A stretch of DNA of 53,326 nt from Candidatus Moraniibacteriota bacterium (GTDB lineage: Bacteria > Patescibacteriota > Minisyncoccia > Moranbacterales > UBA2206), in assembly GCA_013334765.1 (NCBI GenBank), contig JAAXWW010000006.1:1-53326 (forward strand), in the 5' to 3' direction. Made by a program: the position numbers and the translations under genes. This document shows positions 4,868 to 32,091 of the stretch, one piece after another. The notes under the pieces are model-generated. The model was not told where the DNA came from. It saw nothing but the letters and a program-made list of their open reading frames with translations, and did no database searches. Every line of letters begins with the position of its first letter. Within the stretch, counting starts at the first letter, position 1.

Positions 4868-4928
4868 ATACTATATTTTCTAGCATTTATCGGATAAAAT
4901 AACAACATTCAGGCCTTTTATCAAAAAC

Positions 4929-5528: not shown

Positions 5529-6287
5529 TTCGACAGGATGCCGGTGCTTTTTGAAATAACGGTCTTGAGATCCATAGTAGTGCCTTTTCTGTGCCGATCC
5601 GGCTTCGTTTTCATAGCTTGCCCCGCCATGGTGAATGATTTCGAGTCCCGGATCGAAACGAACGGTCTTTCCGAAATCGCGCGCTCTTTTGCAGAGATCC
5701 GCGTCTTCGAAATACATGAAGAAATCCTCGTCGAATCCGCCTAATGATTCGAACAGGTTCTTTCGCATGATGAAAGCCGTTCCGGAAACCCACCCGACAG
5801 GAATCTTGCTTCCGCTCATCCAGATCTCTTTGTCCTTTATGAATCCGAGATTATTGGAAACGATCCGGCTGAAATTTATTTCGTCTCCAGCGCTCCATTC
5901 CTGAACCATGCCGTCCTTATTGAGAAGTTTTCCGCCCACTATGCCAAGCGACGGATCAGCGTGAAAATCATCCAATATCCCCCCTATATTTCCAGAAGAC
6001 ACCCGGGCGTCAGGATTAAGGAAAAATAGGAAATCGCCTTGCGAATTCCTTGCGCCCAGATTGCTTGCTGATCCGAAACCTTTGTTTTGTGATGATCTTA
6101 TTATCCTGATTGACGGAATGCTTTCTATAGTGCCGAGATTAGACTCCTGATCATTATCGACAATAACGATATCCGCGAGGATATCGTTATTTATTTTCTT
6201 CCGGACCGAGTCGACGCAATCGTGAAGATATTTCTCGCTCTTATAGTTGACGATGATAACCGAAAGAGTTTTTTTCAGAGTATTCAT
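5472..6287 (-). CDS. Family 2 glycosyltransferase (rhamnosyltransferase-like)
   Basis: A 271-residue GT-A protein. Visible motifs are SVIIVNYKS at the start, VDND (nucleotide-sugar site), FFLNPDARV (DxD-equivalent metal site) and GGFDEDFFMYFEDADLC, the acceptor-side ED(A/V)D block typical of WbbL/RfbN-like rhamnosyltransferases. It acts on the cytoplasmic face, adding sugars to a lipid-linked glycan. Its last 57 bp overlap the end of convergent tsaC. It is separated from its sister glycosyltransferase by a 154-bp palindromic repeat, so it may be transcribed by read-through from the flippase promoter. Confidence 0.85.
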   Translation of the reverse strand: MNTLKKTLSVIIVNYKSEKYLHDCVDSVRKKINNDILADIVIVDNDQESNLGTIESIPSIRIIRSSQNKGFGSASNLGARNSQGDFLFFLNPDARVSSGNIGGILDDFHADPSLGIVGGKLLNKDGMVQEWSAGDEINFSRIVSNNLGFIKDKEIWMSGSKIPVGWVSGTAFIMRKNLFESLGGFDEDFFMYFEDADLCKRARDFGKTVRFDPGLEIIHHGGASYENEAGSAQKRHYYGSQDRYFKKHRHPVESGLLKAFRKTHLFFSTRP

Positions 6288-6324
6288 GGGGATTATCGGA
6301 ACACAAGAATTTGAAAAGATTATA

Positions 6325-6478
6325 GGTTTTGCGTATTTGCATATTGAAACTAATCAATGGAGGCAAATCGACAAACTGTCGAACAGTAACAAGGCTTTAC
6401 CGCAAGTGGAGCCAGTCATACTGCCACTCCCAACTAACAGGCCGGAACATTAGTTTCAATATGCAAATACGCAAAACC
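6325..6478. repeat. Family 1 palindromic repeat, copy A (inverted orientation)
   Basis: The two ends, 6325-6354 and 6449-6478, are a perfect 30-bp inverted repeat. The ~94-bp core, read on the minus strand, matches the cores at 43864-44016 and 45440-45592, including the shared blocks GTTCCGG, TGGCTCCACT, GCGGTAA and TTGCCTCCATTGATTA. The arm sequence differs from the other copies but still pairs completely. It sits between two co-oriented glycosyltransferase genes. Confidence 0.85.
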
Positions 6479-6502
6479 GCCTTCGTATCAAAACCTAGGA
6501 TA

Positions 6503-7396
6503 CTAATTTGCCTTCTTCGCGCGAACATTGCTCTTGAAATCATCGTACGCTTTTTTGACAGAAAGGGATATGGCATCGCTTGCTTTTTTCCCGACATCCA
6601 TCCGGTTTTTCAGCTTGCGCATGATAGTATAGAAAAATATCCACGGGCGAAGATAGCATCTGGAATTCTTTTTGAAAAAGAAAAGCCCGGAAACGACCAG
6701 CCAATAGATCTTCGCTTCCAGGTTGTCTTCGCTTTTCTCGAAATGCCTGACTTTGGATAGAGGGGAAATAGCCAATTTGAATCCGGCCCGTTTTGCCCTC
6801 ACGCTGAAATCCACATCCTCCCAATAAAGGAAAAAGTCCTCATCCAGAAGTCCGGCTTTGGCGAAGACTTCGCGCCTAATGAGCATCGCGCAGCCGGAAA
6901 CGAAACCTGTTTCGAAAAACTCCTCCTTCAGCTTCTCCGGGGAAGCATCCTCATGCATCGTCCTCATCCGCATCCAATCTATTTTTCCTCCGGAAAACCA
7001 GACGTCGGAAGAATCGCCCCTAGTAATCACCGGGCTTATTATTCCTATGTCCTTGTGCTTCTCCATTATGCCGACAAGGACGGAAAGCATATTGCGTTCG
7101 ATTTCCGTATCGTTATTGAGAAGCAGGATATATTTAGCCTGTTTTTCCAAAGAATATTTGATTCCGACATTGTTTCCCGCTGAAAAACCTAGGTTGCCCT
7201 CGTTTTTGATGAAAGTGGCGCGAGCGAAATCGTTCTTGGCCTCTTCAAGCGATCCGTCTTTGGAATCGTTATCCACCACGACCGCCTCGAAATCAGGATA
7301 ATCCAGCCTGAAAAGGCTGGACAGGCATTTTTTCAAGACATCCTTGCCGTTATAGTTAAGGACTACGATATTTACCTTACATGATGGGTTCTTCAT
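6503..7396 (-). CDS. Family 2 glycosyltransferase
   Basis: A 297-residue GT-A glycosyltransferase related to rhamnosyltransferases. It shows VNIVVLNYNGKDVL, the nucleotide-binding VVVDNDSKDGS, the metal-site LLLNNDTEIE and the acceptor block LLDEDFFLYWEDVDFSVRA. The C-terminal ~60 residues are basic and probably contact the membrane. Its first codons overlap the end of the flippase gene by 20 bp, so the two are translationally coupled. Together they indicate assembly and export of one glycan. It is the closest relative of the 5472-6287 gene visible here, and the two may add successive sugars. Confidence 0.87.
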   Translation of the reverse strand: MKNPSCKVNIVVLNYNGKDVLKKCLSSLFRLDYPDFEAVVVDNDSKDGSLEEAKNDFARATFIKNEGNLGFSAGNNVGIKYSLEKQAKYILLLNNDTEIERNMLSVLVGIMEKHKDIGIISPVITRGDSSDVWFSGGKIDWMRMRTMHEDASPEKLKEEFFETGFVSGCAMLIRREVFAKAGLLDEDFFLYWEDVDFSVRAKRAGFKLAISPLSKVRHFEKSEDNLEAKIYWLVVSGLFFFKKNSRCYLRPWIFFYTIMRKLKNRMDVGKKASDAISLSVKKAYDDFKSNVRAKKAN

Positions 7397-8822
7397 ATTC
7401 CTTGATGCCCTTTTTGGTGAATATGCTTGTTATTTCAGATGTTTCAACAGCCTTGGATATCCATATGGCGCCTGTATATACTGCCATGCCTATAAATCCG
7501 GCCACGAAGAAATTCATTCCTTTGAGCGCGAAAAGTGCCGCTCCCATAATAATACCCGAAAGGACTATCCTTGGAAACCTTTCCACATGCGGGCTGTATG
7601 CCAGGTATTTCGATGCCAAATACCAGCCCAGAAGGGAAACGAATGCCTCTGTCAGGAAAGATATCCAAGCGGCAGCATTATACGAATAGATCGGAATGAA
7701 GATAAGGTTGGAAGCCACGTTCAGCGCGGCGGCGGCGCCAAGGACATACATAAGCTTCTTCTGCATGTTTCCTGCGATCAGGACCGAGTTGAAGAAATTG
7801 GAGAAGAAGATCATCGATAGCGCGAGAACCAGGATCCTGAGCACATTGGCCGACTCGGCGAATCCTACGCCGCCGATAAGCCTTATGACGCCCTCCGAAA
7901 GGAACATCGTCCCGATGATAAGAGGAATGATCGCCAACACGAAAACCTTGAATGTCTTGTTGGAAATATCCTTGAATCTCTCTTTATTGGAGAAGACGTT
8001 CTGCGCCATTATAGGGAATATGAGGCCCATAATCATAGCCGGGAAAAAGGAGATGTTTTCCAATATCTTATATGCAGCATTATATATCCCGACCTCCACG
8101 TTGGTTTTGAGCATCGAGAGAAGGATGGTGTCCATCTTGAAATAAATGAAAACCACCACCGCGGCAATACCCACCGGATATGACGTCGCGAGGAACTTTT
8201 TCCAATAGGCGAAATCGAATCGGAAGCTCAGTTTCACGTATTTCCTTGACCACAGATATACTAAAACGAAATTCACCATTCCATTGAAGAGCAGCGAGGC
8301 GACGATCCATCCGAATCCGAGCGAAAACCTGACAGCTAGGATGACGACTAGCAGCTGAACCGCTTTCCCGACAAGCTCGGAGATAGCCACTTTGTCCATA
8401 ACCAGGTGTTTTTGGAAAACTCCGTTAAGGACCTGATAGCCGGAAGAGAACACGAATGACCCGGAAATGACGATTATTCCGAGCTTGACCGCGTCGGAAT
8501 ACGGGAAAAACAGTATCAGGATAGGGGAGAGAAGAAACACGACCAATGAGGAAAGCAGCCGGAGCGTGAAGATATTGCTCATTATCTCGCTTTCGTCCGC
8601 GCCTTCATGGGATATTTCCCTGGTCGAAAGCTGATTGAGACCGAGATCGGAAATGGCCGAGAATAAGGACAGGAAGGCAAGGACTGTCGCGTAGTCCCCG
8701 AATCCGTCCTTGCCAAGGCCTCTCGTTATGAATCCGACGGCCGCAAGCGCGAGGACAGTGGAAAGGACTTTCGAAACACTGCTGACAAGCACGTTATAGG
8801 CTATTTTTCTAGCAACGATCAT
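7377..8822 (-). CDS. Polysaccharide flippase (MOP/Wzx-like)
   Basis: A 481-residue polytopic protein with about 12-14 hydrophobic helices and the family opening: amphipathic N-terminus, VSSVSKVLSTVL, then FITRGLGKDGFGDYA, which is characteristic of the RfbX/Wzx branch of the MOP exporters. It would move undecaprenyl-linked oligosaccharides to the outer face of the membrane. It is the first gene of the leftward glycan operon, preceded by a -35/-10 pair at 8862-8890 and an AGGAG-type site about 20 bp upstream of the start. The substrate is unknown. Confidence 0.85.
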   Translation of the reverse strand: MIVARKIAYNVLVSSVSKVLSTVLALAAVGFITRGLGKDGFGDYATVLAFLSLFSAISDLGLNQLSTREISHEGADESEIMSNIFTLRLLSSLVVFLLSPILILFFPYSDAVKLGIIVISGSFVFSSGYQVLNGVFQKHLVMDKVAISELVGKAVQLLVVILAVRFSLGFGWIVASLLFNGMVNFVLVYLWSRKYVKLSFRFDFAYWKKFLATSYPVGIAAVVVFIYFKMDTILLSMLKTNVEVGIYNAAYKILENISFFPAMIMGLIFPIMAQNVFSNKERFKDISNKTFKVFVLAIIPLIIGTMFLSEGVIRLIGGVGFAESANVLRILVLALSMIFFSNFFNSVLIAGNMQKKLMYVLGAAAALNVASNLIFIPIYSYNAAAWISFLTEAFVSLLGWYLASKYLAYSPHVERFPRIVLSGIIMGAALFALKGMNFFVAGFIGMAVYTGAIWISKAVETSEITSIFTKKGIKEYEEPIM

Positions 8823-14423: not shown

Positions 14424-16949
14424 CTAATTGCTGACATCCGTATTGACGATTATCGAGTCGGAATCAGAATCCTCATTCACATCAGTGGCCTTCACTGATA
14501 TTTCCAATGAAGAATGCTTGTCACTGGAAGGGATTGTGTATGTGTATTCGAAAGATTTGTCTTGGCTTGATTTCAGTGTTAATCCGTTTATGCTGAGCGA
14601 TACTTTGGAGATATCATCTTTTGAAGATATGTCGGCCTTTATGTCGATCGAGCTTGAGGTTATGGTGTCCCCGTCTTCCGGGCTGTTTATCTGGACAGAC
14701 GGTTTTCCTTCATCATCAGAACTGCTTCCATCGCAGCTGTCAGGAGTGGAACTGGTCGAATAGCCGTTCGATTTCAGCCAATTCTTGACGGCACTGTCCC
14801 AGTTTTCGAATTGGGGATCGTCTTTTGGGTTTTTCGGCGCATCGCCGCGCGGATCATTCCTGTCGACATAATAAAGCAGGGAATGGGCATCGGTGAATTT
14901 CTTTTTCACCCGGTCTTTCCCATTGGGGCATGATCCGTCAGGAATGCAGTATTTCTTGCTGGAAATCTTGCAGACTTTGATTTCTTTCTTGACATTCAAT
15001 TTTCCGTCCAAGGCATCTTTGCCAGTGTTTTCGACTTCATATTTCGGGAAATCCTCGATAGGGGAATTCTGAAGGGCGGTATTCATGAACGCCCGCCAAA
15101 TCGGGGCGGCGACATATATTCCGTCTGAGCCGGCTTTCAATGCGGTGTTATTATTGTTTCCGGCCCATACGCCAGCCACTAGAGACGGCGTGTAGCCCAT
15201 TGTCCAACCATCCCGCCATTCATTAGTGGTTCCGGTTTTGGCGGCTACTGGGCGGTTAGGGAAACTCAAGGGGTTATTATCTCCGAAAACCGGAGCGCGC
15301 AGGCTGTTGGTTGAAAGGATATAGTCAAGCATCGAAACGTATTTCTCATCGATTACCCTGTTTCCGGGCTTGTCCTTGTATTGTTCTAGAACGGTTCCCT
15401 TGCTGTCTTCGACGCGAAGGATTGCGGTCTTGTCATGATGGACACCTCCGGTTGCGAATGTCCCATAGGCATTCACATGATCAAGCAGTTTGACCTCGCC
15501 TCCTCCGAGCACGAGGGATAACCCGTAGTCATCAGGTTTGTTCAGAGTAGTGATACCCATCTGGTGGGCGATATTGATCGAGTCTTTTATGCCTGCCAGA
15601 TAGAGGGTCTTGACTGCGGGGACATTGAGCGATCTTGCCAGCGTGTCTTTCATTTGCAGCAGTCCGCTGTTCTTGCCGTCATAATTCTTCGGATCATATG
15701 TTTTCCCGTCCTCAGTGCTGAAATTGGTGTCCACGTCCCAGATATTGGTTTCGGGAGTGTAGCCCTTGGAAAAAGCGGTCAGATAGACATAGGGCTTGAA
15801 GGATGATCCCGGTTGGCGGTCGCGGATAGCGACATTGACCTGCCCGTCGATGGATTTGTCGAAGTAGTCTTTTGAACCGACCATGGCGAGGATCTGTCCG
15901 GTTTTGGGATCCATGGCGACCAGAGCCGCATTGGAAGCGTTGTATTTGACGTTGTTAGCGGCGCCTTCTTTTACGGCTTTTTCCGCGGCCTGCTGCTTGT
16001 TCCAATCGAGGGTGGTATATGCTTTCAATCCTCCCTGTTCCACTGCCTGTTCGCCGTATCTGTTTTCCAGGTATTCTTTCACATACATGACGAAATGCGG
16101 CGCGGATATGTTTTCAGAGGGCGCTTTTATTTTCGAAAGGACGTCAACAGCCTTGGCTTCATCAGCTTGTTCCTGGGTGATATACCCAAGCTTCGCCATC
16201 TGGTTGAGCGCATATTGCTGGCGTCCGATGAGGGCATCGGTGTGGTTTCCGTAAGGGGAATAATAGGACGGAGCTTGCGGAAGGGACGCGAGGAGGGCTG
16301 ATTCGTCAAGGGACAATTCCTCGGCATGCTGTCCGAAAAACGTCTGGGCTGCTGCTTCGATGCCGTAGGCGTTGGATCCGTAGGGTATCTCATTGAGATA
16401 CATGCCGAGGATATCGTTTTTCGAGAATTTCTGTTCCAGCTCGATAGCCAGGATAACCTCTTTTATTTTCCTGATGAGTGTCCGCTCTGATGTCAGGATG
16501 GAATTCTTTATGAGCTGCTGGGTTATGGTAGACGCTCCCTGTTTGGCTCCGCGATGGAAAATATCGACGAGAGCCGAACGGAAAATGGAAGTTATCTTTA
16601 TCCCGTGATGCAGATAGAAGTCCTGGTCTTCCAGTGAGATGGTGGCGTATTTGACGGCTTCGGGCATCTGGGCGAAATCTATCTGGGTTCTTTTCTCTTC
16701 GCCATGGATGTCATAGAGCAGGTGCTGCCCGGTACGGTCATATATCTTAGTGGACTCGATGATTTTGCGACTGCTGACCGATCCGGGGCTGGGAAGGTCT
16801 TTCCATGCCCAGGCGAATACGCCGACGACGAAAACGAACCCGGCTATCGCCAGAATGCCGAGATATTTGAATATTTTCTTCCAATTCCAGTTAAAGCGGG
16901 ATCTTCTCGCGGGCCTCCGGAAGTCCCTAGGTGAGAATGCTTGCCACAT
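14424..16949 (-). CDS. Class A penicillin-binding protein (PBP1A-like)
   Basis: An 841-residue bifunctional peptidoglycan synthase. It has a basic cytoplasmic tail, a transmembrane helix (about 28-50), a GT51 glycosyltransferase domain (about 75-260; catalytic Glu107 in LEDQDFYLHHG, and KQGASTITQQL) and a transpeptidase domain with SSFK (active-site Ser), SLN and KTGT in the right order. The last ~90 residues (after a Ser/Asp-rich linker near 745) form an Ig-like Big domain with VQINSPEDGDTI. Its own promoter lies at 16986-17014, so it is probably independent of the ligase cluster, though co-directional with it. Confidence 0.93.
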   Translation of the reverse strand: MWQAFSPRDFRRPARRSRFNWNWKKIFKYLGILAIAGFVFVVGVFAWAWKDLPSPGSVSSRKIIESTKIYDRTGQHLLYDIHGEEKRTQIDFAQMPEAVKYATISLEDQDFYLHHGIKITSIFRSALVDIFHRGAKQGASTITQQLIKNSILTSERTLIRKIKEVILAIELEQKFSKNDILGMYLNEIPYGSNAYGIEAAAQTFFGQHAEELSLDESALLASLPQAPSYYSPYGNHTDALIGRQQYALNQMAKLGYITQEQADEAKAVDVLSKIKAPSENISAPHFVMYVKEYLENRYGEQAVEQGGLKAYTTLDWNKQQAAEKAVKEGAANNVKYNASNAALVAMDPKTGQILAMVGSKDYFDKSIDGQVNVAIRDRQPGSSFKPYVYLTAFSKGYTPETNIWDVDTNFSTEDGKTYDPKNYDGKNSGLLQMKDTLARSLNVPAVKTLYLAGIKDSINIAHQMGITTLNKPDDYGLSLVLGGGEVKLLDHVNAYGTFATGGVHHDKTAILRVEDSKGTVLEQYKDKPGNRVIDEKYVSMLDYILSTNSLRAPVFGDNNPLSFPNRPVAAKTGTTNEWRDGWTMGYTPSLVAGVWAGNNNNTALKAGSDGIYVAAPIWRAFMNTALQNSPIEDFPKYEVENTGKDALDGKLNVKKEIKVCKISSKKYCIPDGSCPNGKDRVKKKFTDAHSLLYYVDRNDPRGDAPKNPKDDPQFENWDSAVKNWLKSNGYSTSSTPDSCDGSSSDDEGKPSVQINSPEDGDTITSSSIDIKADISSKDDISKVSLSINGLTLKSSQDKSFEYTYTIPSSDKHSSLEISVKATDVNEDSDSDSIIVNTDVSN

Positions 16950-16985
16950 AAAATAAAAGATATGTCAATTAAACAAATTTGTTCT

Positions 16986-17049
16986 AGTTTAACTGATTTT
17001 GGGGAAATGTTCAAGGATGTGACAAATGATGCCGAGCAGGTCATTTGTC
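16986..17049 (-). promoter_or_regulatory. PBP promoter with adjacent inverted repeat
   Basis: On the minus strand TTGAAC (17014-17009), 17 bp, TAAACT (16991-16986). Directly upstream of the -35 is a perfect 9-bp inverted repeat (17021-17029 with 17041-17049, 11-base loop) without a T-tract, so it looks more like a protein-binding site than a terminator. Confidence 0.5.
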
Positions 17050-17079
17050 GGCGATCCTATGCTTTTTCAATGCGCGTCT

Positions 17080-18282
17080 TTATTTTTTTTGCAGTTCCTC
17101 TTTGATAACAGATATATCTTTCTTTATCTGGTCTCCTATTATATAGAGAATCTCATCCTTTTTGAGCTTGCGGATTGATTTTCGGATAGCTGTCAGTTCG
17201 TCATTTATTATTCTGGCAACTGCGCCTTCTTTTTTCAATTCTTCCAGCATCATTTTTGCCACGCTTCCGGCTTTCTTGTCCCGAGTGAATATTTTTCTGA
17301 GAGACGGCCTGCTGATGGCCTTGTCATAAATTATATAAGAATCGAATAAGGGGGCTATCTTCCGGGTCAGGTCTCTTATGATGCCTTCTTTGCGGTAATA
17401 GGAAAGCCTTATGACGGCTTTCAGATGCCTCCCTTTGAATTTTAAGCGCAATGTCTTGGCGGCCTCGGAAATGCTTTTTATTTCATGAGCATAATCAAGC
17501 ACGACCGTATATCCGTTCTTGTCGAATAGATTGAATCTTCCCGGAACCGATAGCACTGACTTCTTTTTCAATATTTCCGGCCCTATCTTCAATGATTTCA
17601 ATATGCCGGTTATGGCTATAAGGTTCGATTCCGAAATTTCCGATCGGATTCCAGCAGGAAAGCTTGCTGAGGATATTTTCAGCAGCAAGGTGTCATTGAG
17701 GTAGATGCAATCGTTTTTCATGTAACACTTGCCTATCTGATCGGAGGAGCTATGAAACAGTCTTTTATTGTATGCGACTACGGACAAATCATTGCGATTT
17801 TTCCTCAATTTTGAAATCGCCTTATATGAAACGCTGTTTTTCTTATCGCCGGCATATATGAAGGCGGTCCCTCCTTTTTTGAGGTTTCCGATCAGCTTCA
17901 GCTTTCTTTCGAGCAGGTCTTTCTGATCCTTTATTCTTTCGCCGTCGATGTGGTCCCAATAGACATTGGTCAGTATGGCCAGATCGATATTGTTTTTAGC
18001 GAAAGACTCCCGGATGTTTTTCCCGGAACTGAAGCTGCTTTCCAATATGACATAGTCGAAACGGCGGGCTTCGTCGCTGCGTACCTCATTCAATGCGCAG
18101 ACATTAGCGGAAGTCTTGAATTTCTTCAGGAAGTATTCATTGTCCTTGATAATCTTCCCATTCTTAAATATGCCCTCGCTGCTTATGCAAAGCACTTTCT
18201 TTCCAATTGAGAGAAGCGCGTTATTGAGGGTTAACGAAAGGGTGGTTTTTCCTTTTGTGCCGGTGATAAGGATGACCTTCAT
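17080..18282 (-). CDS. Mur-ligase-family amide ligase lacking the N-terminal domain
   Basis: A 400-residue ATP-dependent ligase starting directly with the P-loop (ITGTKGKTT, residues 6-14), so the usual UDP-binding N-domain of MurC-F is missing. ILTNVYWDHIDGE corresponds to the Mur central-domain metal and lysine block, and VVLDYAHEIKSI to the DYAHxP motif of the C-terminal domain. This domain set resembles CapB/PgsB of poly-gamma-glutamate synthesis and the C-terminal half of cyanophycin synthetase CphA. It is the last gene of the ATP-grasp train and begins 3 bp after the preceding stop. I infer amide bond formation between amino acids or to a peptide; the substrate is unknown. Confidence 0.75.
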   Translation of the reverse strand: MKVILITGTKGKTTLSLTLNNALLSIGKKVLCISSEGIFKNGKIIKDNEYFLKKFKTSANVCALNEVRSDEARRFDYVILESSFSSGKNIRESFAKNNIDLAILTNVYWDHIDGERIKDQKDLLERKLKLIGNLKKGGTAFIYAGDKKNSVSYKAISKLRKNRNDLSVVAYNKRLFHSSSDQIGKCYMKNDCIYLNDTLLLKISSASFPAGIRSEISESNLIAITGILKSLKIGPEILKKKSVLSVPGRFNLFDKNGYTVVLDYAHEIKSISEAAKTLRLKFKGRHLKAVIRLSYYRKEGIIRDLTRKIAPLFDSYIIYDKAISRPSLRKIFTRDKKAGSVAKMMLEELKKEGAVARIINDELTAIRKSIRKLKKDEILYIIGDQIKKDISVIKEELQKK

Positions 18283-18285
18283 CTT

Positions 18286-19209
18286 TTATTTATCGCTTAA
18301 TATCGTCAATGAATCCAAAAGTCCATCGATAAAGCTCTTATGATTTCTCATATCATCGCTCGGAAATCCTATCTGATCGTTGAGCTCGAATACGTAGGGA
18401 CCGTTTCTTGTCATTCCGAAGTCTATCGAATAAACCGGCTTTTGGAATTTTTCATCTACTATCGTTTTTATCTTTTCAGCCACATCCATGATTTCCTGCG
18501 GTATTTTTTCCAAAGGAACTTCTTTTATCGATCCGCCTTGGGAAGCGTTAGCAAGGTAGCTTCCTTCCCGGGGAGTCCTTATGTGGGACAGGACTGTTTT
18601 TCCATTGACTATCACGACCCTGAGATCATGCCTTCCATTGGAAAGACCCTCTATCCCGCATGATGTATCGATGAAATCCTGAATGACATATTCGTTGCCA
18701 GGGTCTAAGTTTGTTTTTCTCAATTCGGAAACTTTGTCTATGATGATCCCTTTACCTCCTAGCCCCTTGGCAGGCTTCAATACGGCAAGCTCGTCTTCCC
18801 TGAATCCATTCAGAACTTCTTGGAATTTATCGGTTTTTTTGAGTTCAAAGCTTTTCGGCATGAATTGCCCGAAATATTCATACATCTTGTTCTTGTCATT
18901 GCAAAGAATTTTGAAATCAGAACAGTTAAGGACCTTGCCGTCCATTTCTTTTGCGGGAAAACTGATCCCCCCGCTCCTGTCATATATAGCATCTGCGATT
19001 ATCGTTCCTTGCGTTTTCGCGAATTCATTTCCATTGAAAAAAGCAGGATCGTTAAAGGAGAGACCTCCTCGATAGGCTTCCGGCCCGCTTGCCAGATACA
19101 TATCGAAGCCAAGATCGCGCCCTTTCTCGAAAAAATAACGGTATACGTTTCTTTTTTTGCCGAACTTAAAAAAAGGGTCATTGCCGGGCCTTTCCTTCTT
19201 GAAATACAT
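18286..19209 (-). CDS. RimK-type ATP-grasp ligase (third of three small ligases)
   Basis: A 307-residue ATP-grasp protein. The recognisable core is VLKPAKGLGGKGIIIDKV (phosphate-binding glycine loop), EYVIQDFID, the DLRVVIVNGKTVLSHIRTP strand pair and YSIDFGMTRNGPYVFELND, which supplies the acidic Mg ligands of the fold. The family forms amide bonds through an acyl phosphate. I choose ATG at 19209, 2 bp after the upstream stop, rather than the overlapping start at 19239, because it gives the same stop-TA-ATG junction as the neighbours. The substrate is unknown; the C-terminal QIGFPSDDMRN is unusual for RimK. Confidence 0.75.
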   Translation of the reverse strand: MYFKKERPGNDPFFKFGKKRNVYRYFFEKGRDLGFDMYLASGPEAYRGGLSFNDPAFFNGNEFAKTQGTIIADAIYDRSGGISFPAKEMDGKVLNCSDFKILCNDKNKMYEYFGQFMPKSFELKKTDKFQEVLNGFREDELAVLKPAKGLGGKGIIIDKVSELRKTNLDPGNEYVIQDFIDTSCGIEGLSNGRHDLRVVIVNGKTVLSHIRTPREGSYLANASQGGSIKEVPLEKIPQEIMDVAEKIKTIVDEKFQKPVYSIDFGMTRNGPYVFELNDQIGFPSDDMRNHKSFIDGLLDSLTILSDK

Positions 19210-19211
19210 TA

Positions 19212-20111
19212 CTATTTTTTTCCTTGGTGATATTCGCATAGATAATCAGCTAAGACGCTTGTTTCATCGGATACCTTTTCATCATAAGTGAATGCGGGGG
19301 AGCGGTTGACTTCGAATATGAACGGATCGTTGTTTTTATCGACAACCACATCGACCCCGGCAACCTGTATGTTCGTAAGTTTCGCCGCAGCGACGGCTAC
19401 GCTTTTTATAAAAGGGGGAACCTTGGATAAATCCATAAATTCTTCGGAAGCGCCGAGATGCACGTTGTTCCTGAATTCTTCCTTCTTATCCGGCCTTTCT
19501 CTCTTTATGACGCAGGCCGCCTCATCGCCTAATACGAGGACTCGGTAATCGAAATCATTAGGGATGAATTCCTGCAGTATTATTTCCTCCTCGGGGTTTT
19601 TTCTTGTTATTTCCAGGGCCTCCTCCTTGTTCTTGGCCAGAAACACCCCTAGTCCTTTTCTGCTTTGTGAAAATTTGACAACCATGGGGAGTCCTAGGAA
19701 TTTTTCAGCGCGGTTCATGGAAAAGCTGTCGTATTGAGAAGAAAAATATGTTTTCGGAACGGGAATGCCGGCGCTTGAAAGAAAAAACATCTGGCTTAAT
19801 TTTCCAGGATCATTGCTATTTTCGTAAAGCTTGTCAATGAAAAGAATTCCGTTCTTCTTGGCGATATTGGATAATATCGAGGCCAAGCTCCGTTTCTTTC
19901 CTACCCGCCTGAAAAAAACGGCTTTGTATCGCGATAAAGGCTTCTTGTCTATGAAAGCCTCGCTAGCCTCATTGCTTATGAACAGCTCTATTTTTTCCAT
20001 GCTGGATATTTCCGTTTCTATGCCTTTTTCGGTCAGTTTCCGGATCAGCATGTCTATGCCCTTCTGCGTCTCCGGACTTGATTCCTGTTTGCTTTTCAAT
20101 ATGAGCAGCAT
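19212..20111 (-). CDS. RimK-type ATP-grasp ligase (second of three)
   Basis: A 299-residue ATP-grasp protein (start chosen at ATG 20111; a TTG at 20129 would add six residues). Core motifs are MVVKFSQSRKGLGVFLAKN (glycine loop), IILQEFIPNDFDYRVLVLG, and VAGVDVVVDKNNDPFIFEVN, where Asp and Glu/Asn would bind Mg-ATP, then RSPAFTYDE. This is close to the RimK/LysX branch that attaches glutamate or other amino acids to a carboxylate. It lies in a co-directional run of ligases with near-zero spacing, which suggests sequential or alternative steps of one pathway. Confidence 0.8.
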   Translation of the reverse strand: MLLILKSKQESSPETQKGIDMLIRKLTEKGIETEISSMEKIELFISNEASEAFIDKKPLSRYKAVFFRRVGKKRSLASILSNIAKKNGILFIDKLYENSNDPGKLSQMFFLSSAGIPVPKTYFSSQYDSFSMNRAEKFLGLPMVVKFSQSRKGLGVFLAKNKEEALEITRKNPEEEIILQEFIPNDFDYRVLVLGDEAACVIKRERPDKKEEFRNNVHLGASEEFMDLSKVPPFIKSVAVAAAKLTNIQVAGVDVVVDKNNDPFIFEVNRSPAFTYDEKVSDETSVLADYLCEYHQGKK

Positions 20112-20130
20112 ATGTTTTGATTTTGACAAA

Positions 20131-21093
20131 TTAGCAATCCACTTTTCTTTTCATGACCAAAATGAATTCGATGATATTCTTTATGACATTTCTTGTCTTG
20201 CCGTATGTCGGATTGTAATGAATATACAAATCCGGTTTGCCGTTTATTTCTATGATGCTGAAATGCTGACCCTCCGGCCTTTTCGTTATATCGTCGCACA
20301 TCAGGTCGATTCCGACGAGATAATTTTCTGTCAGTTTCCCGGCTTTTGCGCACAAAGAGGCTATGTTGTCATTTATGATGTCCGTCACGTCCCTTGTCTC
20401 TCCTCCTTCGGCTAGGCAAGAGTTGTTCTTGATGAATATCCGCGTTCCTTTTTCAGGTGTGCTTCCAAGCGATGAACCTTGTTTTGACAGGATGCTGTCG
20501 AGAACGTTATCCCGGACGGTTTCATTGCAGATATCTTTCTGTTTCCTGGCTATCAGTTCGTCAACTGTCGATTTGCCGTCTCCTAGGATGCTTGGCGGTA
20601 TCATTTCAAGCACGCCGATAGCCTTGTTTCTGAGCATCAGTACCCGGAACTCTTTTCCGAAAACCATTTCCTGTGCTATGAGGCGGGGAAAGATATTGAT
20701 TTTTTCTGTCAGTATTCTTTTCGCTTCGCTTATATCCGGGATATTTACGAAAACTCCGCGGCTATTCGATCCGTCAGAATCTTTTATGACGATCGGATAA
20801 CTGAGTTGGGACAGCTTTTCATCGGCAGGGTTCTTTTTGAAAGTCTTCTTATAGAAGCATACGGTTTTGGGCGTCGGGATGCCTTCTTTTTCAAGGATGA
20901 AATAAGTCAGATCTTTGAATGCCGTCAATTCTTTTCCGACAAGGGAGCTTCTCGTTATTTTGAATTTCCTCGAAACGAATATCTTTTCTCCATCTATCCT
21001 GATATAAAAGCATCCTCTTTCGGGGATTATCTTTTCTACGGAGCCGCCCATTTCTTCGACGACTTTCTTGATTAAGGCTGAATTTCTGATCAT
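20131..21093 (-). CDS. Cyanophycin-synthetase-like ATP-grasp ligase (first of three)
   Basis: A 320-residue ATP-grasp protein. PIVIKDSDGSNSRGVFVNI is the ATP-binding loop. EMVFGKEFRVLMLRNKAIG and PPSILGDGKSTVDELI match the conserved stretch of CphA and GshF ligases (the latter usually PxxVxGDGxxTIxxLI), and GIDLMCDDITK with IIEINGKPDLYIH gives the Mg ligands. Together with the separate Mur-ligase-like protein at 17080 it looks like the two halves of a CphA-type enzyme encoded apart. It starts 2 bp after the stop of the upstream ligase/protease fusion. Confidence 0.78.
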   Translation of the reverse strand: MIRNSALIKKVVEEMGGSVEKIIPERGCFYIRIDGEKIFVSRKFKITRSSLVGKELTAFKDLTYFILEKEGIPTPKTVCFYKKTFKKNPADEKLSQLSYPIVIKDSDGSNSRGVFVNIPDISEAKRILTEKINIFPRLIAQEMVFGKEFRVLMLRNKAIGVLEMIPPSILGDGKSTVDELIARKQKDICNETVRDNVLDSILSKQGSSLGSTPEKGTRIFIKNNSCLAEGGETRDVTDIINDNIASLCAKAGKLTENYLVGIDLMCDDITKRPEGQHFSIIEINGKPDLYIHYNPTYGKTRNVIKNIIEFILVMKRKVDC

Positions 21094-21095
21094 TA

Positions 21096-22541
21096 TTATT
21101 TGCTTGTGTCTATTAGGAAATTCTTCAGATCCCTTCTTCCGATGAGCAAGGGATATTTCAGCCCATCGCGGTTGGCGATCGACATCTTGGAAGTCATGTT
21201 CATTTTGTCGATAATGATCGGAATCGATATCTCGGCCCTATAGGTGGCCCCATGAGAGGAGAATGTCTTAGCTACGCCTACGATATCCGGATGCTTTTCC
21301 AGTTCTTTCCATGTCTCGTTCTTGCTGAGCTCCCGTATTTCTTCTTCGCTGAGGACTTGATCGAGATGAAAATCTTCCCAGATTCTGACGGCCTCCCTGT
21401 ATCCCAGGCTTATGGCTAGGTTCTTATCTATAGCGGAAATGCCGGCTCCTGTATCTATGCGAGCCTCCACTTCGATTTCCTTTCCTTCTTTTCCGATGAG
21501 TTTCACTTTTTCCACTGTTCCAATGACTTTCTTTCCGGAAATCTCCTCCAGTTCCTCCTCGATTTCCCCTCCGAAAAGATCCATCCCGACGCGCACGCCG
21601 CGTTCGCGGGTCTTGATCTTGAGGCTTCTTATTTTTTCGAGCCTCTCCTTGAGTCCTGACAGGTTGGCTATCTGGATAGAAAGCCCCGGGCGGGCATTGA
21701 GCTCCAGGATGACTGGGCCTTTTTCCTTGTCGATCGCGATGTCGGCGCCCAGGAACCCGAGTCCCGAGACGCTTTGCGCGTCGACTGCGAGGCGCAGCAT
21801 GTCTTTCCAATAGGGAAGTTTCAGTCCTGAAAGCAGCAGCCTTGTCCCTGGAACGTATTCTATGAGCTTGCTTTTCCCGACAACGGCGCTGGTCGTGGTC
21901 CCGGTTGCCATGTCGATGCCGACCCCGACAGCTCCCTGCTGCAGGTTGGCTTTTCCGCTGGATTCCCTGGTCGGAAGGCGCAGCATCGCCATCACTGGGA
22001 TCTTGTTGAAGACGATGATGCGGATATCCGGAATCCCTTTATAGGCATAGGGTTTGAAAAGTTTCAGCAGCTGGAGCCTTTCTTCGAAAAAAGCCGTGTC
22101 ATGTATGCCGGAAAGGGAGAAGGATCCGTCGATGATGTTCCTGACATGATTTTTGAGATCGTCGATTGTCACTAGCGAGCGATCGGCTTTTATCCAGGCG
22201 TCGTCGCGTCCCTTCTTTTTGCCATATACGACGATGATCCCTTCACCGCCGAATCCTCGGTTCGGCTTCAGCACGAAGCTCGCGGGCAATTTTTGCCAAT
22301 CGAAATTATCCAGATCCTGATAGGAGCATATCTTGGCGATCAGTCCTGGAACGGAAATATTGTTTTTCTTGAGGATCCTTTTGCAAAGAAGCTTGTCGTC
22401 CGCGATGCGCTTGGCGCGCTTCCGGTTGAACGGCCGAATAAACTCAAGATTCCTTGAGTTCATGCCGAGTATTTTCCTGCTTTTCCTGAAAAAATCAAAC
22501 ACGCTTAGTATCCGGCAAAACATGCGATCAGTCTGTCGCAT
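21096..22541 (-). CDS. Alpha-L-glutamate ligase-like ATP-grasp fused to RimB-type aspartyl protease domain
   Basis: A 481-residue two-domain protein. The N-terminal ~310 residues are an ATP-grasp of the RimK-related E-ligase group: SRKILGMNSRNLEFI opening, FVLKPNRGFGGEGIIVV loop, PDIRIIVFNKIPVMAMLRLP, and GADIAIDKEKGPVILELNAR. From about residue 335 a second domain carries ARIDTGAGISAID, the DTGA retropepsin-like active-site motif of the RimB/DUF785 family, and ends PLLIGRRDL. In proteobacteria these occur as separate neighbouring genes next to a 7TM protein, as also found here. A ligase and a peptidase in one chain imply making and trimming of the same peptide. Domain calls are from motifs only. 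Confidence 0.8.
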   Translation of the reverse strand: MRQTDRMFCRILSVFDFFRKSRKILGMNSRNLEFIRPFNRKRAKRIADDKLLCKRILKKNNISVPGLIAKICSYQDLDNFDWQKLPASFVLKPNRGFGGEGIIVVYGKKKGRDDAWIKADRSLVTIDDLKNHVRNIIDGSFSLSGIHDTAFFEERLQLLKLFKPYAYKGIPDIRIIVFNKIPVMAMLRLPTRESSGKANLQQGAVGVGIDMATGTTTSAVVGKSKLIEYVPGTRLLLSGLKLPYWKDMLRLAVDAQSVSGLGFLGADIAIDKEKGPVILELNARPGLSIQIANLSGLKERLEKIRSLKIKTRERGVRVGMDLFGGEIEEELEEISGKKVIGTVEKVKLIGKEGKEIEVEARIDTGAGISAIDKNLAISLGYREAVRIWEDFHLDQVLSEEEIRELSKNETWKELEKHPDIVGVAKTFSSHGATYRAEISIPIIIDKMNMTSKMSIANRDGLKYPLLIGRRDLKNFLIDTSK

Positions 22542-22553
22542 GCCAAGCGCTTG

Positions 22554-23213
22554 TTACATATTCTTTATTATTTCCCTGAATCTGACGTATTCCGTGATGC
22601 GAAGACCCGTCCATTTCCCGATCAGGAGATTCAGCGGGACAGTCAGGATGACTATCCAGGGATAGGTGATGATGAAATTGATAAGCAGCGGCCAACTGGC
22701 TATGTAGAAGCCGAGGATCGAAATGATGAGCGTTTCCGCTGCCAGCATGAAAGCGACGCGGTCTCCTTTTTCGATCTGCACGGTGATGAATTTCTCGACG
22801 AGAGTGATCATGATAAGGATAGGGAAAATGGAAACGGAAGCCAATCCTGTCCTTCTGAGTCCGCCACCGATAGTCAGCATGAAAAGGATCGCGATCGCGA
22901 CAATCGTGAGCATGATGGCGACGCGGGGAAGATAGAGCAGGCGGAGCGATTTAAGCAAGAGGCGCGAAAGCATTCCGACCAGAAGGATCGTCACAAAAAT
23001 GGCTATGCCGTATTTGACGCCGTTGGTGGCAAGGAAGGCGAAGGTGACTATGAGAGGAGTATATACTCCGAAAGCCTTGACTCCGACCACTTGGCGGAGA
23101 AGGGCGATGAAGGTTGCGATAATGGGGAGCATCAAGAGAAGCACAACGGTGTCGAAGGGAACCCCTTCCCGGAGAAAGAAATCGATAACGGGATTCAGGT
23201 GCTGTATGTTCAT
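22554..23213 (-). CDS. 7TM membrane protein of the inactive-transglutaminase-associated family
   Basis: A 219-residue polytopic membrane protein with about seven hydrophobic segments. VGVKAFGVYTPLIVTFAFLA and LLYLPRVAIMLTIVAI are recognisable blocks of the 7TM domain that in other bacteria is fused to an inactive transglutaminase; that extracytoplasmic domain is absent here. The start is set at 23213 (MNIQHLNP); the longer frame to 23297 would overlap ruvC. In proteobacteria this family travels with the RimK-like E-ligase and RimB-like protease, exactly the next gene here. CapC/PgsC membrane proteins of polyglutamate synthesis are a functional analogy, not an established homology. Confidence 0.75.
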   Translation of the reverse strand: MNIQHLNPVIDFFLREGVPFDTVVLLLMLPIIATFIALLRQVVGVKAFGVYTPLIVTFAFLATNGVKYGIAIFVTILLVGMLSRLLLKSLRLLYLPRVAIMLTIVAIAILFMLTIGGGLRRTGLASVSIFPILIMITLVEKFITVQIEKGDRVAFMLAAETLIISILGFYIASWPLLINFIITYPWIVILTVPLNLLIGKWTGLRITEYVRFREIIKNM

Positions 23214-23220
23214 GGTTTTT

Positions 23221-23715
23221 TCAAGTTGATTTAATGCTTGATAGTTTCCTGCTGTGGATGTGGCAGACCGCAATCGCAAGAGCATCTGCCGTATCATCGG
23301 GTTTCGGAACGGATTTGAGGCCGAGAATGTTCTTGGTCATCAGCTGGACTTGGGCTTTTTCCGCTTTGCCATAGCCGGTTATGGCCTGCTTCACTTGAAG
23401 CGGCGTGTAACTTGAAACCTTAACATTATTTCGTTCAAGTGTCAATAGGACAGTCCCGCGAGCCTGAGCTACCTGGATGACGGTTTTCTGGTTCTTGAAG
23501 AAGAAAAGGCTTTCCACGGCTGCTTCCTGCGGATGGTATTTTTCTATTATCTGAGCGATATCGTTCGATATTTCCAGGAGCCTGTCCTCATCGCGGCGGT
23601 CTTTTTCGGTACTGATGTGGCCGTATGCCAGGGCTTGGATTTTTCCTGAAGATTCTTCGATGACGGCCCATCCGGTGGTGGCTGTTCCTGGGTCGATGCC
23701 TAGCACTCGCAACAT
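23221..23715 (-). CDS. ruvC: Holliday junction resolvase RuvC
   Basis: A 164-residue RNase H-fold endonuclease that cuts Holliday junctions. Catalytic acids are visible: Asp8 in LGIDPGTATTGW, Glu in EAAVESLFFFKN, and the pair in PKPDDTADALAIA. I start at ATG 23715; the frame continues 14 codons upstream but that extension (MFHVPCFMPHVSCP) is the translation of a catgga-type minisatellite. The gene follows yebC, a classical neighbour, and leads into the 7TM/ATP-grasp train with 7 bp to the next start. ruvA and ruvB are elsewhere in the window. Confidence 0.93.
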   Translation of the reverse strand: MLRVLGIDPGTATTGWAVIEESSGKIQALAYGHISTEKDRRDEDRLLEISNDIAQIIEKYHPQEAAVESLFFFKNQKTVIQVAQARGTVLLTLERNNVKVSSYTPLQVKQAITGYGKAEKAQVQLMTKNILGLKSVPKPDDTADALAIAVCHIHSRKLSSIKST

Positions 23716-23757
23716 GGGGCATGAAACATGGGGCATGAAACATGGAACATGGAACAC
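23714..23757. repeat. catgga-type minisatellite at the ruvC start
   Basis: A run of five short units of the form acatgg(g/a)(g/a)c-at(g/a), directly abutting the ruvC ATG. The same motif recurs at 26736-26760, 33462-33487 and 48276-48312. Confidence 0.75.
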
Positions 23758-29061: not shown

Positions 29062-32000
29062 CTATAAATCCGTCACTCTTTCCACTTCCGAAAGCGTCGT
29101 CTCGCCTTCGATGACATGCAGGATGCCGTCCTGGGTCATGGTGAGCATGCCGTTTTCGACAGCCTTGTCCTGGAGGTCATTGGTGAGGGCGCCTTGCGTG
29201 ATCATCTCCTGGATATCGCGAGTGAGCTGGAAGACCTCGGAAACCGTCATGCGGCCTTTGTATCCGAGATGGTTGCATTCGTCGCATCCGACAGTCGCGT
29301 ATATCTTTTTGAGTTCCGGAATGGCGATGCCTGATTTCGGGGAAATAGTCTTGATGACGGACTGGATTTTCTCGGCCTCTTCGGGAGTCGGATCGATTTC
29401 TTTCTTGCAATGCGGGCAGAGCCTTCGGACCAGGCGCTGCGCTATGAAGGCATTGACTGAGGTGGCGACGTCCTGCGGCGTGACGCCCATGTTGATCATA
29501 CGGGCGACGGCTCCCGCCGCGTTGTTGGTGTGAATGGTCGAGAGGACCAGATGTCCGGTGAGGGCGGCCTGCACTGCCACCTGCGCCGTTTCGTCATCGC
29601 GGATTTCACCGATCATCATGATGTCAGGATTCTGACGGAGAAGCTGGCGAAGAGCGGTCGCGAAAGTATATCCGCCGGCGTCATTGACCGGAGTCTGCAA
29701 TATCCCTTCCATGCGGTATTCGATCGGATCTTCCACGGTGATTATTTTCACTTCCGGCTTGTTGAGGTGCTGCAGGACGCTGTAGAGAGTGGTGGTCTTT
29801 CCGCTGCCGGTCGGACCGGTATTGAGGATCACCCCGTTCGGTTTCTCGATCTCAAGGAGGATCTTTTCGAGATTCTCTTTCCGGATGCCGAGCTTGGTAA
29901 GGTCGTATTCCAGATTGGCGCTCGAGAGGAGCCTCATAACGACAGTCTCGCCGTATCCGCCGAGGATTATGGAAACACGGACGTCGATCATCTGTTCGGC
30001 GACGTCTTTTATGTCATCATCGAACTTGATGCTGAAACGGCTATCGATCACTCCCTGTCTCACTTCCGTCTTCACTCCGGAGAGAAGCTTTATCTGTCCC
30101 AGGAAATTCGGATATTCGGTCATGGTGATCTTGACGACGGTCTGCAGGATGCCGTCGATCCGGAAGCGTATGTGGACGTCTTCCGAGCCCGGTTCGATGT
30201 GGATGTCTCCAGTGCCCAGGATTTCGGCTGCCGCGAATATTATCTTGGCTATATCGATAGTCTTGGCTTTGGAGACAGCCTCCTGGAGAAGGGAAAAGTC
30301 ATGGACATTCTCTTTCGCTATATCGAATGATTCCTTGTTGACCAGGACCTTCCTTCCAAGGGTCTGGGACATGAGGCGCTCATAGATGTTCTCCAGGAAT
30401 TCTCCTTCTCCGGTCACTCTTTTCACTTCGTCGATCGAAGTGATTCCGGCAATGGCTTTCAATATCCCGTCCTGAAGCATGGTTATCATGCCTGATTCAA
30501 GGGCTGTCATGGTGAGTTCGGTTTCTCCGGCCAGCTCGATGATCAGCTTCTCAAGATCTTCATTGATGGTGAGGATCTCGAATATCCCGCGTCGCCCTTT
30601 GTAGCCGACTCCGTTGCATTTGGGGCATCCTTTCGGGCGGTACAGCTTGGTGATCTCTTTGGGAATCTCGACTCTTGATCGGGGAGAGATGATGGATAGG
30701 ACCTTTTTGATCGAATCGATAGTTTCGGTTGCCGGGACATATTCCTCTTTGCAGAAATCGCAGAGTTTTCTGACTAGCCTCTGTCCGATGATGGCGTTTA
30801 TGGAAGGGCTTATGAGCGACGGCTTCACTCCGAGCTCGATGAGCCGGGGAATGGCTCCGATGGCGCTGTTGGTGTGGAGCGTCGAGAGCACGAGATGCCC
30901 GGTAAGGGATGAATTGACGGCGATGTCGGCAGTTTCGTCGTCTCGGATTTCACCGACCAGGATGACGTCCGGATCCTGACGGACTATGGCGCGCAGGCCG
31001 GAAGCGAAAGTGTATCCTCTGGCTTTTTCGATCTGGGTCTGTGAAATCCCTTCCAATTCGTATTCGATCGGGTCTTCAATGGTGATGATTTTCTTGTCGG
31101 GCGTGTTCAGTTTGTGGATGATGGCATAGAGGGTAGTGGTCTTTCCGCTGCCGGTCGGACCGGTATTGAGGATCATGCCATTAGGTTCATTGATCTGCTT
31201 CTGCAGCTCTTCCCCAGCCAGCCCGACGATTCCGAGCTGTTCCACCTCGACGCGGATGGATTCCGGATCGAGAAGCCTTATGACTATGGATTCGCCGAAG
31301 TTTCCTGGGATGACGGAAACGCGGGTGTCGATTTTCTTGCCGGAAAGATGGACTTCGAAAGTTCCGTCTTGAGCGATATCGCGTAGGTTTATCTTCATGC
31401 CGGACATGATCTTGATACGCGAAAGCACGCTTTTGAAAACGCTCAATGGGAACATAGCGACATCCTGGAGGATCCCGTCGATGCGGTATCTGAGGCGGAA
31501 TTCGTTTTCCTGAGGTTCGATATGGATATCGGAAGATTGGAGGGCATAGGCGCCCGCCATGATGACATTCAATATCTGAGTGACAGGCATCTCCTTGATT
31601 CTTTTCCTGAGGGATACCAGGTTCTTGATAGCCGTTTTGTATTCTTGGAGCTCGTCATCCCCGATACTGAGGCTCAGCTGGTCGATGACGTCGAGAAAGA
31701 CTATCTTTTTGTAGCGCTCCAGGATATTCTTGAAATTGGTGTTGGAAACGACGAAAAGCCTGATTTCCCATCCGTTTTCTTCCGATAGGTGCTTGGCGAA
31801 CTTGCTGGTCTCTTCAGCCGTGGGATTGGGTGAAACCATGCTCACGTTTTTCCCTGCTTTTTGGATGATGGCCATGTTGTATTTTATGGCTGATTCTTCA
31901 GGAAGAAGCCGGAGGTTGTCAGGGGAAACCGGGACGACGTTCGTGTCGATATATGGGAAATTTATGGAAGCGGCGAAAAACGAGGCCTGTTCTTCCTCGG

Positions 32001-32091
32001 AGCGATGGCGGAGTTTCGCGATGATGTCCTGGGTTTCCCGATCTTTTTTGGAATGGTCAAGGGGCGCCTGACCGCTTAATACTTTTATCAT
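29062..32091 (-). CDS. Double PilB/GspE-type secretion ATPase (two complete ATPase modules in one chain)
   Basis: A 1009-residue fusion of two type II secretion/type IV pilus assembly ATPases; ordinary members have about 550 residues. Module 1 (about 150-570) has DIHIEPQ, Walker A GPTGSGKT (311-318), LVGEIRDDET, a GHLVLSTLHTN His box and a tetracysteine zinc site (C444, C447, C489, C492). Module 2 (about 600-1000) repeats the order with DIHIEPG, Walker A at 759-766, MIGEIRDDET, GHLVLSTIHTN and a second tetracysteine site. An N-terminal ~140-residue MshEN-like region occurs once. Both modules keep all catalytic residues. The product should power pilus extension or DNA uptake; no other pilus gene is in the window. 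It has its own terminator and is flanked by a truncated family 1 repeat. Confidence 0.92.
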   Translation of the reverse strand: MIKVLSGQAPLDHSKKDRETQDIIAKLRHRSEEEQASFFAASINFPYIDTNVVPVSPDNLRLLPEESAIKYNMAIIQKAGKNVSMVSPNPTAEETSKFAKHLSEENGWEIRLFVVSNTNFKNILERYKKIVFLDVIDQLSLSIGDDELQEYKTAIKNLVSLRKRIKEMPVTQILNVIMAGAYALQSSDIHIEPQENEFRLRYRIDGILQDVAMFPLSVFKSVLSRIKIMSGMKINLRDIAQDGTFEVHLSGKKIDTRVSVIPGNFGESIVIRLLDPESIRVEVEQLGIVGLAGEELQKQINEPNGMILNTGPTGSGKTTTLYAIIHKLNTPDKKIITIEDPIEYELEGISQTQIEKARGYTFASGLRAIVRQDPDVILVGEIRDDETADIAVNSSLTGHLVLSTLHTNSAIGAIPRLIELGVKPSLISPSINAIIGQRLVRKLCDFCKEEYVPATETIDSIKKVLSIISPRSRVEIPKEITKLYRPKGCPKCNGVGYKGRRGIFEILTINEDLEKLIIELAGETELTMTALESGMITMLQDGILKAIAGITSIDEVKRVTGEGEFLENIYERLMSQTLGRKVLVNKESFDIAKENVHDFSLLQEAVSKAKTIDIAKIIFAAAEILGTGDIHIEPGSEDVHIRFRIDGILQTVVKITMTEYPNFLGQIKLLSGVKTEVRQGVIDSRFSIKFDDDIKDVAEQMIDVRVSIILGGYGETVVMRLLSSANLEYDLTKLGIRKENLEKILLEIEKPNGVILNTGPTGSGKTTTLYSVLQHLNKPEVKIITVEDPIEYRMEGILQTPVNDAGGYTFATALRQLLRQNPDIMMIGEIRDDETAQVAVQAALTGHLVLSTIHTNNAAGAVARMINMGVTPQDVATSVNAFIAQRLVRRLCPHCKKEIDPTPEEAEKIQSVIKTISPKSGIAIPELKKIYATVGCDECNHLGYKGRMTVSEVFQLTRDIQEMITQGALTNDLQDKAVENGMLTMTQDGILHVIEGETTLSEVERVTDL

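Follow-up and report, generated by a model that had tools for sequence, protein, structure and literature searches.

Positions 17080 to 23213 of a 53,326-nucleotide stretch of DNA from a Candidatus Moraniibacteriota bacterium (Ca. Moranbacteria; contig JAAXWW010000006.1), the whole of which is hereafter called the window, carry a train of six genes. In this train a fixed core, consisting of a seven-transmembrane (7TM) protein and a fusion of an ATP-grasp ligase with a retropepsin-type protease, is followed by a cassette of further ligases that varies and is swapped between related genomes. We judge the chances to be evenly balanced that the product of this locus is an envelope conjugate of variable composition, either a peptide or a peptide-decorated structure (glycopeptide). 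A preliminary description made from the window sequence had proposed an undescribed peptide-ligase pathway comprising four ATP-grasp domains, a retropepsin-type domain, a Mur-like ligase and a 7TM protein in a tight leftward train next to PBP1A. All of these genes and domains are confirmed by profile searches, and no description of the locus in Candidate Phyla Radiation (CPR) bacteria or Patescibacteria was found in the open-licence literature. The refuting condition named in that description, a lack of co-conservation or ligases all belonging to housekeeping families, did not hold: the core genes are conserved together and none of the ligases attains the cut-off of a housekeeping NCBIfam model. 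The description overlooked that the gene set is no fixed pathway and that the ligases form a hypervariable, exchangeable cassette, the most informative feature of the locus.

Organisation of the locus

The train runs leftward from 23213 down to 17080, with yebC and ruvC upstream and PBP1A downstream. Pfam and NCBIfam profile searches of the window proteins yield the following assignments.

23221 to 23757, minus strand: ruvC, constant left neighbour (PF02075, E = 5.4e-53)
22554 to 23213, minus strand: 7TM protein, 219 amino acids from its ATG, constant core gene (PF14402, E = 3.9e-31)
21096 to 22541, minus strand: fusion of a RloC-type ATP-grasp ligase (amino acids ~30-305; PF14397, E = 9.4e-68) and a retropepsin-type aspartic protease (amino acids ~339-475, D363-T-G; PF05618, E = 1.7e-7), constant core gene
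20131 to 21093, minus strand: cassette ligase B (cluster c2), ATP-grasp with a GDGKST motif (TIGR02068, E = 4.3e-48, CphA model 202-471)
19212 to 20129, minus strand: cassette ligase C (cluster c5), RimK-type ATP-grasp (PF08443, E = 2.3e-27; TIGR00768, 106.6 bits against a cut-off of 143.4; RimK structures, E = 3e-20)
18286 to 19239, minus strand: cassette ligase D (cluster c1), divergent ATP-grasp of RimK/GshB type (PF14397, E = 3.8e-10; PF08443, E = 4e-8)
17080 to 18282, minus strand: cassette Mur-like ligase (cluster c36, relatives in c6; TIGR02068, E = 1.8e-31 over 481-860; PF08245 and PF02875)
14424 to 16949, minus strand: PBP1A, transglycosylase and transpeptidase, constant right flank of the cassette (PF00912, E = 6.3e-59; PF00905, E = 1.3e-21)

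Successive genes of the train are separated by 12, 2 and 1 bp, a 28-nt overlap and 3 bp, with 7 bp between the 7TM gene and ruvC and 130 bp between the train and PBP1A. The ruvC neighbourhood is probably positional rather than functional. None of the train proteins reaches the cut-off of a curated NCBIfam family; ligase C scores below both RimK models, with 71.8 against 331 bits for NF007764, and ligase D has no PDB match at E ≤ 0.001. All RimK-family domains of the source genome (0.97 Mb; 4 of 4) lie inside the locus, as do 83 of 101 RimK-family matches across 55 genomes of the order when counted by contig. The Mur-like ligase retains its P-loop (GTKGKTT), TNVYWDH and DYAHE motifs and starts right at the P-loop, which bears out the earlier remark that its UDP-binding domain is missing. 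It is the sixth Mur ligase of the genome; by reading, two of the other five lie beside Ddl and MurG genes, and it does not appear to be the sole or required MurC-F enzyme. A housekeeping role for the window cassette ligases was considered and rejected, because none of them reaches an equivalog cut-off and Mur ligases and Ddl are encoded separately in the genome.

The constant core

The 7TM family (PF14402) is present in 51 of the 55 surveyed genomes of the order, and the locus is single-copy. In the fetched loci of Moranbacterial relatives the fusion gene comes immediately after the 7TM gene without exception (48/48), ruvC is nearly always upstream and PBP1A is downstream in 42, part of the remaining six running off their contigs. 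With the pair adjacent in every locus and PBP1A in 42 of them, the arrangement is far beyond chance. The core extends across the phylum, where the 7TM gene occurs in 111 of 380 sampled Patescibacteria genomes, including Woesebacteria, Shapirobacteria, Beckwithbacteria and Kaiserbacteria. Among 40 loci fetched phylum-wide, 38 have an ATP-grasp gene next to the 7TM gene and 35 of those have a recognisable retropepsin domain. PBP1A adjacency also recurs outside Moranbacteria (loci L124, L125, L130 and L136), and it is through PBP1A that the envelope connection suggested by the preliminary description gains support.

The core is homologous to the RloABC operon of Pseudomonas aeruginosa, which encodes a retropepsin (RloA), a 7TM protein with an inactive transglutaminase domain (RloB) and an ATP-grasp (RloC) (PMC12239564). 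This operon now gives a name to the proteobacterial parallel of RimK-like ligase, RimB-like protease and 7TM protein that the preliminary description had pointed out. In both systems homologous 7TM, ATP-grasp and retropepsin parts are encoded adjacently and co-directionally, here with the 12-bp gap; the hypervariable ligase cassette and the PBP1A neighbour distinguish the Moranbacterial locus. In P. aeruginosa, losing all three RloA proteases is harmful and loss of RloB or RloC rescues this fully or partly; RloA cleaves polyglutamate in vitro, and rloB and rloC mutants have cell-shape and ampicillin phenotypes (PMC12239564). These observations would fit a scheme in which RloC makes a chain, RloB shares in its membrane handling and RloA trims it.

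The 7TM protein matches the RloB model NF052267 (E = 3.7e-27, 95 bits against a cut-off of 900) only over model positions 313-508 of 508. Its C-terminus bears the invariant residues R205, E208, R211 and F212. Relatives in other classes carry extra N-terminal parts, namely PKD domains in L125 and L128, and Woesebacterial 7TM proteins have, by reading, signal-peptide-like starts. Together with the seven helices of the family name and a consistent AlphaFold (AF2) model (predicted local distance difference test, pLDDT, 89.5), these extra parts suggest a topology with the N-terminus outside and the C-terminus inside, on the side of the ligase. A fold search of the model against the PDB returned nothing significant, and the weak resemblance to NqrD/RnfA (best E = 0.32, for NqrD; template modelling score ~0.4) was not used.

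The fusion protein is a clear homologue of the RloC-type ATP-grasp, although it falls slightly short of the cut-off of model TIGR02291 (E = 2.3e-88, 296.3 bits against 314.2), and its retropepsin domain matches NF052264 (E = 3.3e-9). Its ATP-grasp signature residues and the D-T-G motif are retained. It has no sequence relative in the PDB, and all 50 fold-search matches listed contain an ATP-grasp.

In several lineages the fusion gains a third domain, a MATCAP-type carboxypeptidase. Single chains of ATP-grasp ligase, middle (retropepsin) region and carboxypeptidase are found at L138:5822-8218, L158:11490-13937 and L143:5629-7983, the retropepsin region not being detected in the L143 chain. Such ATP-grasp-MATCAP chains combine writer and eraser domains in a manner resembling the eukaryotic tubulin code. 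An equivalent system of C-terminal protein tagging, in which the ligases write and the retropepsin or MATCAP domains erase tails on one or a few proteins, would account for the RimK and TTL-family matches and for MATCAP carboxypeptidases both within cassettes and fused to a ligase. It has a precedent in RimK/RimB acting on RpsF (PMC12239564; PMC11957791). The S6 polyglutamylation system likewise pairs RimK-type ATP-grasps with a retropepsin-type protease; the present locus differs in its several divergent ligases, membrane partner and variable cassette. Tagging leaves the constant 7TM partner unexplained, and a housekeeping tag would not be expected to have its entire ligase sets, along with glycan enzymes, replaced from one close relative to the next. 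We regard it as improbable.

Exchange of the ligase cassette

Between the fusion gene and PBP1A most loci contain one to four co-directional genes, chiefly ligases. The main ones are ATP-grasps of clusters c1, c2, c3, c4, c5, c7 and c13 and Mur-like ligases of c6 and c36; rarer genes encode glycosyltransferases (c9, c16, c19, c20), a GNAT acetyltransferase (c10), a YdjC-type deacetylase (c11), a MATCAP-type carboxypeptidase (c8), a methyltransferase (c22) and DUF3541 (c15). The genomes are mostly metagenome-assembled and contig ends cut some loci. The 43 complete loci hold 30 different gene sets, a count that depends on the threshold chosen for average-linkage clustering, as the nucleotide-level swaps described below do not.

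For c2 at least, the cluster for which labels were shuffled, cassette content is no more closely tied to phylogeny than expected by chance: on a tree of 1515 core residues the presence of c2 requires 14 changes, of which well-supported branches force 13, and shuffled labels require 14.6. The corresponding changes for c1, c3 and c4 number 15, 10 and 8. The c2 proteins themselves can be 28% identical in close genomes (core 88%) and 81% identical in distant ones (core 64%).

Replacement can be seen directly at the nucleotide level. L052 and L048 belong to the same genus and their core proteins are 94% identical; the L052 cassette consists of c2 and a Mur-like ligase, that of L048 of c1, two glycosyltransferases and c14. 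Their DNA is 85% identical to just beyond the fusion stop codon and 93% identical again starting ~70 bp short of PBP1A; the stretch enclosed by these flanks shows no detectable similarity. The L053/L046 pair has the same pattern. In 42 of 43 loci the guanine-cytosine (GC) content of the cassette also falls below that of the core (mean -6.8 points, Wilcoxon p = 4.5e-13), with values of 42-44% and 50-51%, respectively, in the window. Constant flanks around an exchangeable, low-GC middle that is unlinked to phylogeny are, by analogy, the genetics of a variable surface-antigen locus. O-antigen and capsule loci share the constant flanks, the exchangeable low-GC middle and its replacement between close relatives; they differ in that their variable genes are glycosyltransferases, whereas here they are mostly amino-acid ligases, and no Wzx or Wzy is found in cassettes with identified families.

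The PBP1A neighbour raises the alternative of a species-specific modification of the peptidoglycan cross-bridge or stem peptide, in which UDP-MurNAc-peptide or lipid II would be extended with amino acids by the ligases, and the modified precursor used by PBP1A. PBP1A is the direct neighbour in the 42 Moranbacterial loci and in other orders, and the Pseudomonas rlo mutants have wall-type phenotypes. ATP-grasps also have form here, the D-aspartate ligase Aslfm of enterococci being the precedent for cross-bridge modification. Such variability between relatives with 94% identical core proteins is, however, rare for cross-bridges; glycosyltransferase, YdjC and MATCAP genes do not fit and the retropepsin is unexplained. 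The genome, moreover, already has a separate set of Mur ligases and a FemAB-family gene (48023-49165), which may represent a tRNA-dependent cross-bridge enzyme. On balance this explanation is unlikely.

Island-like GC content and turnover might equally bring to mind a graspetide or another small diffusible peptide, such as a toxin or signal, made by the ligases, and graspetide clusters have been reported in CPR bacteria (PMC8939145). The gaps of 1-12 bp in the train leave no space for a precursor gene, the train has no export ABC gene, and the core, present in a single copy across the order, contrasts with the sporadic occurrence of biosynthetic clusters. A product of this kind is very unlikely.

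Ligase B, the Mur-like protein and cyanophycin synthetase

The preliminary description had likened two of the window genes to a split cyanophycin synthetase. Relative to CphA1 (TeCphA1, PDB 7wac; SuCphA1, 7lg5), ligase B resembles the G domain and the Mur-like protein the M domain, and this homology to the two halves stands. In TeCphA1, Arg309 binds the acceptor carboxylate and Arg323, Asn394 and Arg458 bind the incoming aspartate (PMC9427784). Ligase B keeps Lys261 and Arg309, the latter as Arg150 in the window protein, which also keeps Glu215; the three aspartate contacts are replaced by Met164, Cys226 and Tyr290. Across the c2 family, compared with one template and with an imperfect loop alignment near 394 (gaps in 6 of 27), the positions of the catalytic Lys261 and Arg309 are invariant in 27 of 27 proteins and the three contact sites for the incoming amino acid differ between members. 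The invariant pair and variable contacts suggest that c2 ligases retain the chemistry of chain-end extension while the amino acid added seems to differ.

A storage role, with ligase B serving as G half and the Mur-like protein as M half in the synthesis of a branched, cyanophycin-like poly-amino acid, draws on the fact that these are the proteins nearest to the two CphA halves, and on the adjacency of c2 and Mur-like genes in L033, L052 and L053. The G and M parts are nevertheless in separate genes without an N domain, and the Mur partner is optional, occurring in only 6 of 49 loci (L033, L052, L053, L056, L076 and the window), and most c2 loci lack it. With a Mur half missing from most loci and an aspartate pocket that is not kept, cyanophycin itself is an unlikely product, and we give the storage polymer very little credence. 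The claim of a split synthetase as such is not supported.

The suggestion of a CapB-type system is not supported either. CapB/PgsB poly-gamma-glutamate synthase is similarly a Mur-fold ligase without a UDP-binding domain; however, the best match of the Mur-like protein is to the M domain of CphA, the train has no CapA- or CapC-like genes, and no PgsB/CapB model is among the 20 NCBIfam matches.

A model for a proposed variable envelope conjugate

Our preferred reading remains a variable peptide or glycopeptide envelope conjugate, and the model proposed here for its catalysis, chain, export, anchoring and selection is conditional throughout. The cassette ligases would act in the cytosol with ATP, joining amino acids singly to an acceptor or growing chain, such that the mix of ligases determines the composition of the chain, to which sugars may be added in some species. 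A common unit, possibly acidic, may be added or polymerised by the constant ligase and cut back by the protease domain of that same protein, much as polyglutamate is handled by RimK/RimB and probably by RloC/RloA. The 7TM protein would dock the fusion enzyme and pass or anchor the product at the outer face, where wall growth driven by PBP1A could incorporate it; placement at the wall would be the reason for the PBP1A neighbour. Cassette turnover would reflect recombination in the constant flanks under selection for diversity of the kind that surface antigens typically face from phages, hosts or competitors. The link to the envelope draws on PBP1A adjacency, on the extracytoplasmic PKD domains of related 7TM proteins and on the P. 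aeruginosa rlo phenotypes. The pairing of ligase and peptidase is itself recurrent, including in the fusions of ATP-grasp, retropepsin region and MATCAP.

Several points weigh against this proposal. We infer, rather than observe, the product, its export and its attachment, and transport by the 7TM protein is a guess given that its fold has no significant PDB match. The transglutaminase-like domain of RloB is absent from the Moranbacterial 7TM protein, and the retropepsin, periplasmic or secreted in the Rlo system, is here C-terminal on a soluble ligase and presumably cytosolic. Many other Patescibacteria have lost the adjacency to PBP1A; the core of L077 is followed by no ligase at all, and that of L036 by one weak candidate at most. 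Low GC content and turnover are equally compatible with defence or secondary-metabolite islands, and the marks of swapping are by themselves no proof of a surface product.

Patescibacteria, most of them uncultured, make up a very large share of bacterial diversity and are thought to live largely on the surfaces of other cells. What varies on their own surface is, to our knowledge, poorly known. A bolder and more doubtful proposal, which we advance tentatively, is that Patescibacteria vary their surface by a combinatorial non-ribosomal peptide code, in which swappable ATP-grasp and Mur ligases operate on an ancient Rlo-type platform of ligase, protease and 7TM protein; such a code would probably serve to adjust attachment to hosts or escape from phages. 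If true, a near-universal single-copy Moranbacterial locus that exchanges amino-acid ligases as others exchange sugar transferases would be a new way of diversifying the surface, and a combinatorial peptide code a categorically new kind of antigen-like diversity. Such a locus would also place the recently named Rlo proteins in a functional context. The locus further offers many natural ligase combinations for work on peptide-ligase specificity.

Other features of the genome and window

Other surface machinery lies nearby in the window. A Wzx/Wzy-type surface polysaccharide cluster near dnaA (2422-8822) encodes two Wzy_C/O-antigen-ligase-type membrane proteins, two family-2 glycosyltransferases and a Wzx-type flippase. 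A 1009-amino-acid gene at 29062-32091 has two tandem type II/IV secretion ATPase (T2SSE) domains, forming a doubled PilB-like ATPase.

Elsewhere in the genome, MurD lies, by reading, at the C-terminal end of an 814-amino-acid frame (L114; contig C9, near 75.9 kb) whose N-terminal part is similar to the glutamate epimerase MurL, which makes the frame a probable MurL-MurD fusion. A first MurF-like gene is on contig C1, and a second MurF-like ligase (L112; contig C6, near 134 kb), read as having N-terminal membrane helices, adjoins Ddl.

Promoter and terminator scans yielded nothing decisive. The 130-bp gap between cassette and PBP1A (16950-17079) contains, by reading, a perfect inverted repeat, ACAAATGA...TCATTTGT, that could be an operator or a cassette boundary element. 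An Rfam scan of the window returned a single tRNA only, near which a 449-amino-acid Fic-domain protein is encoded (46522-47871).

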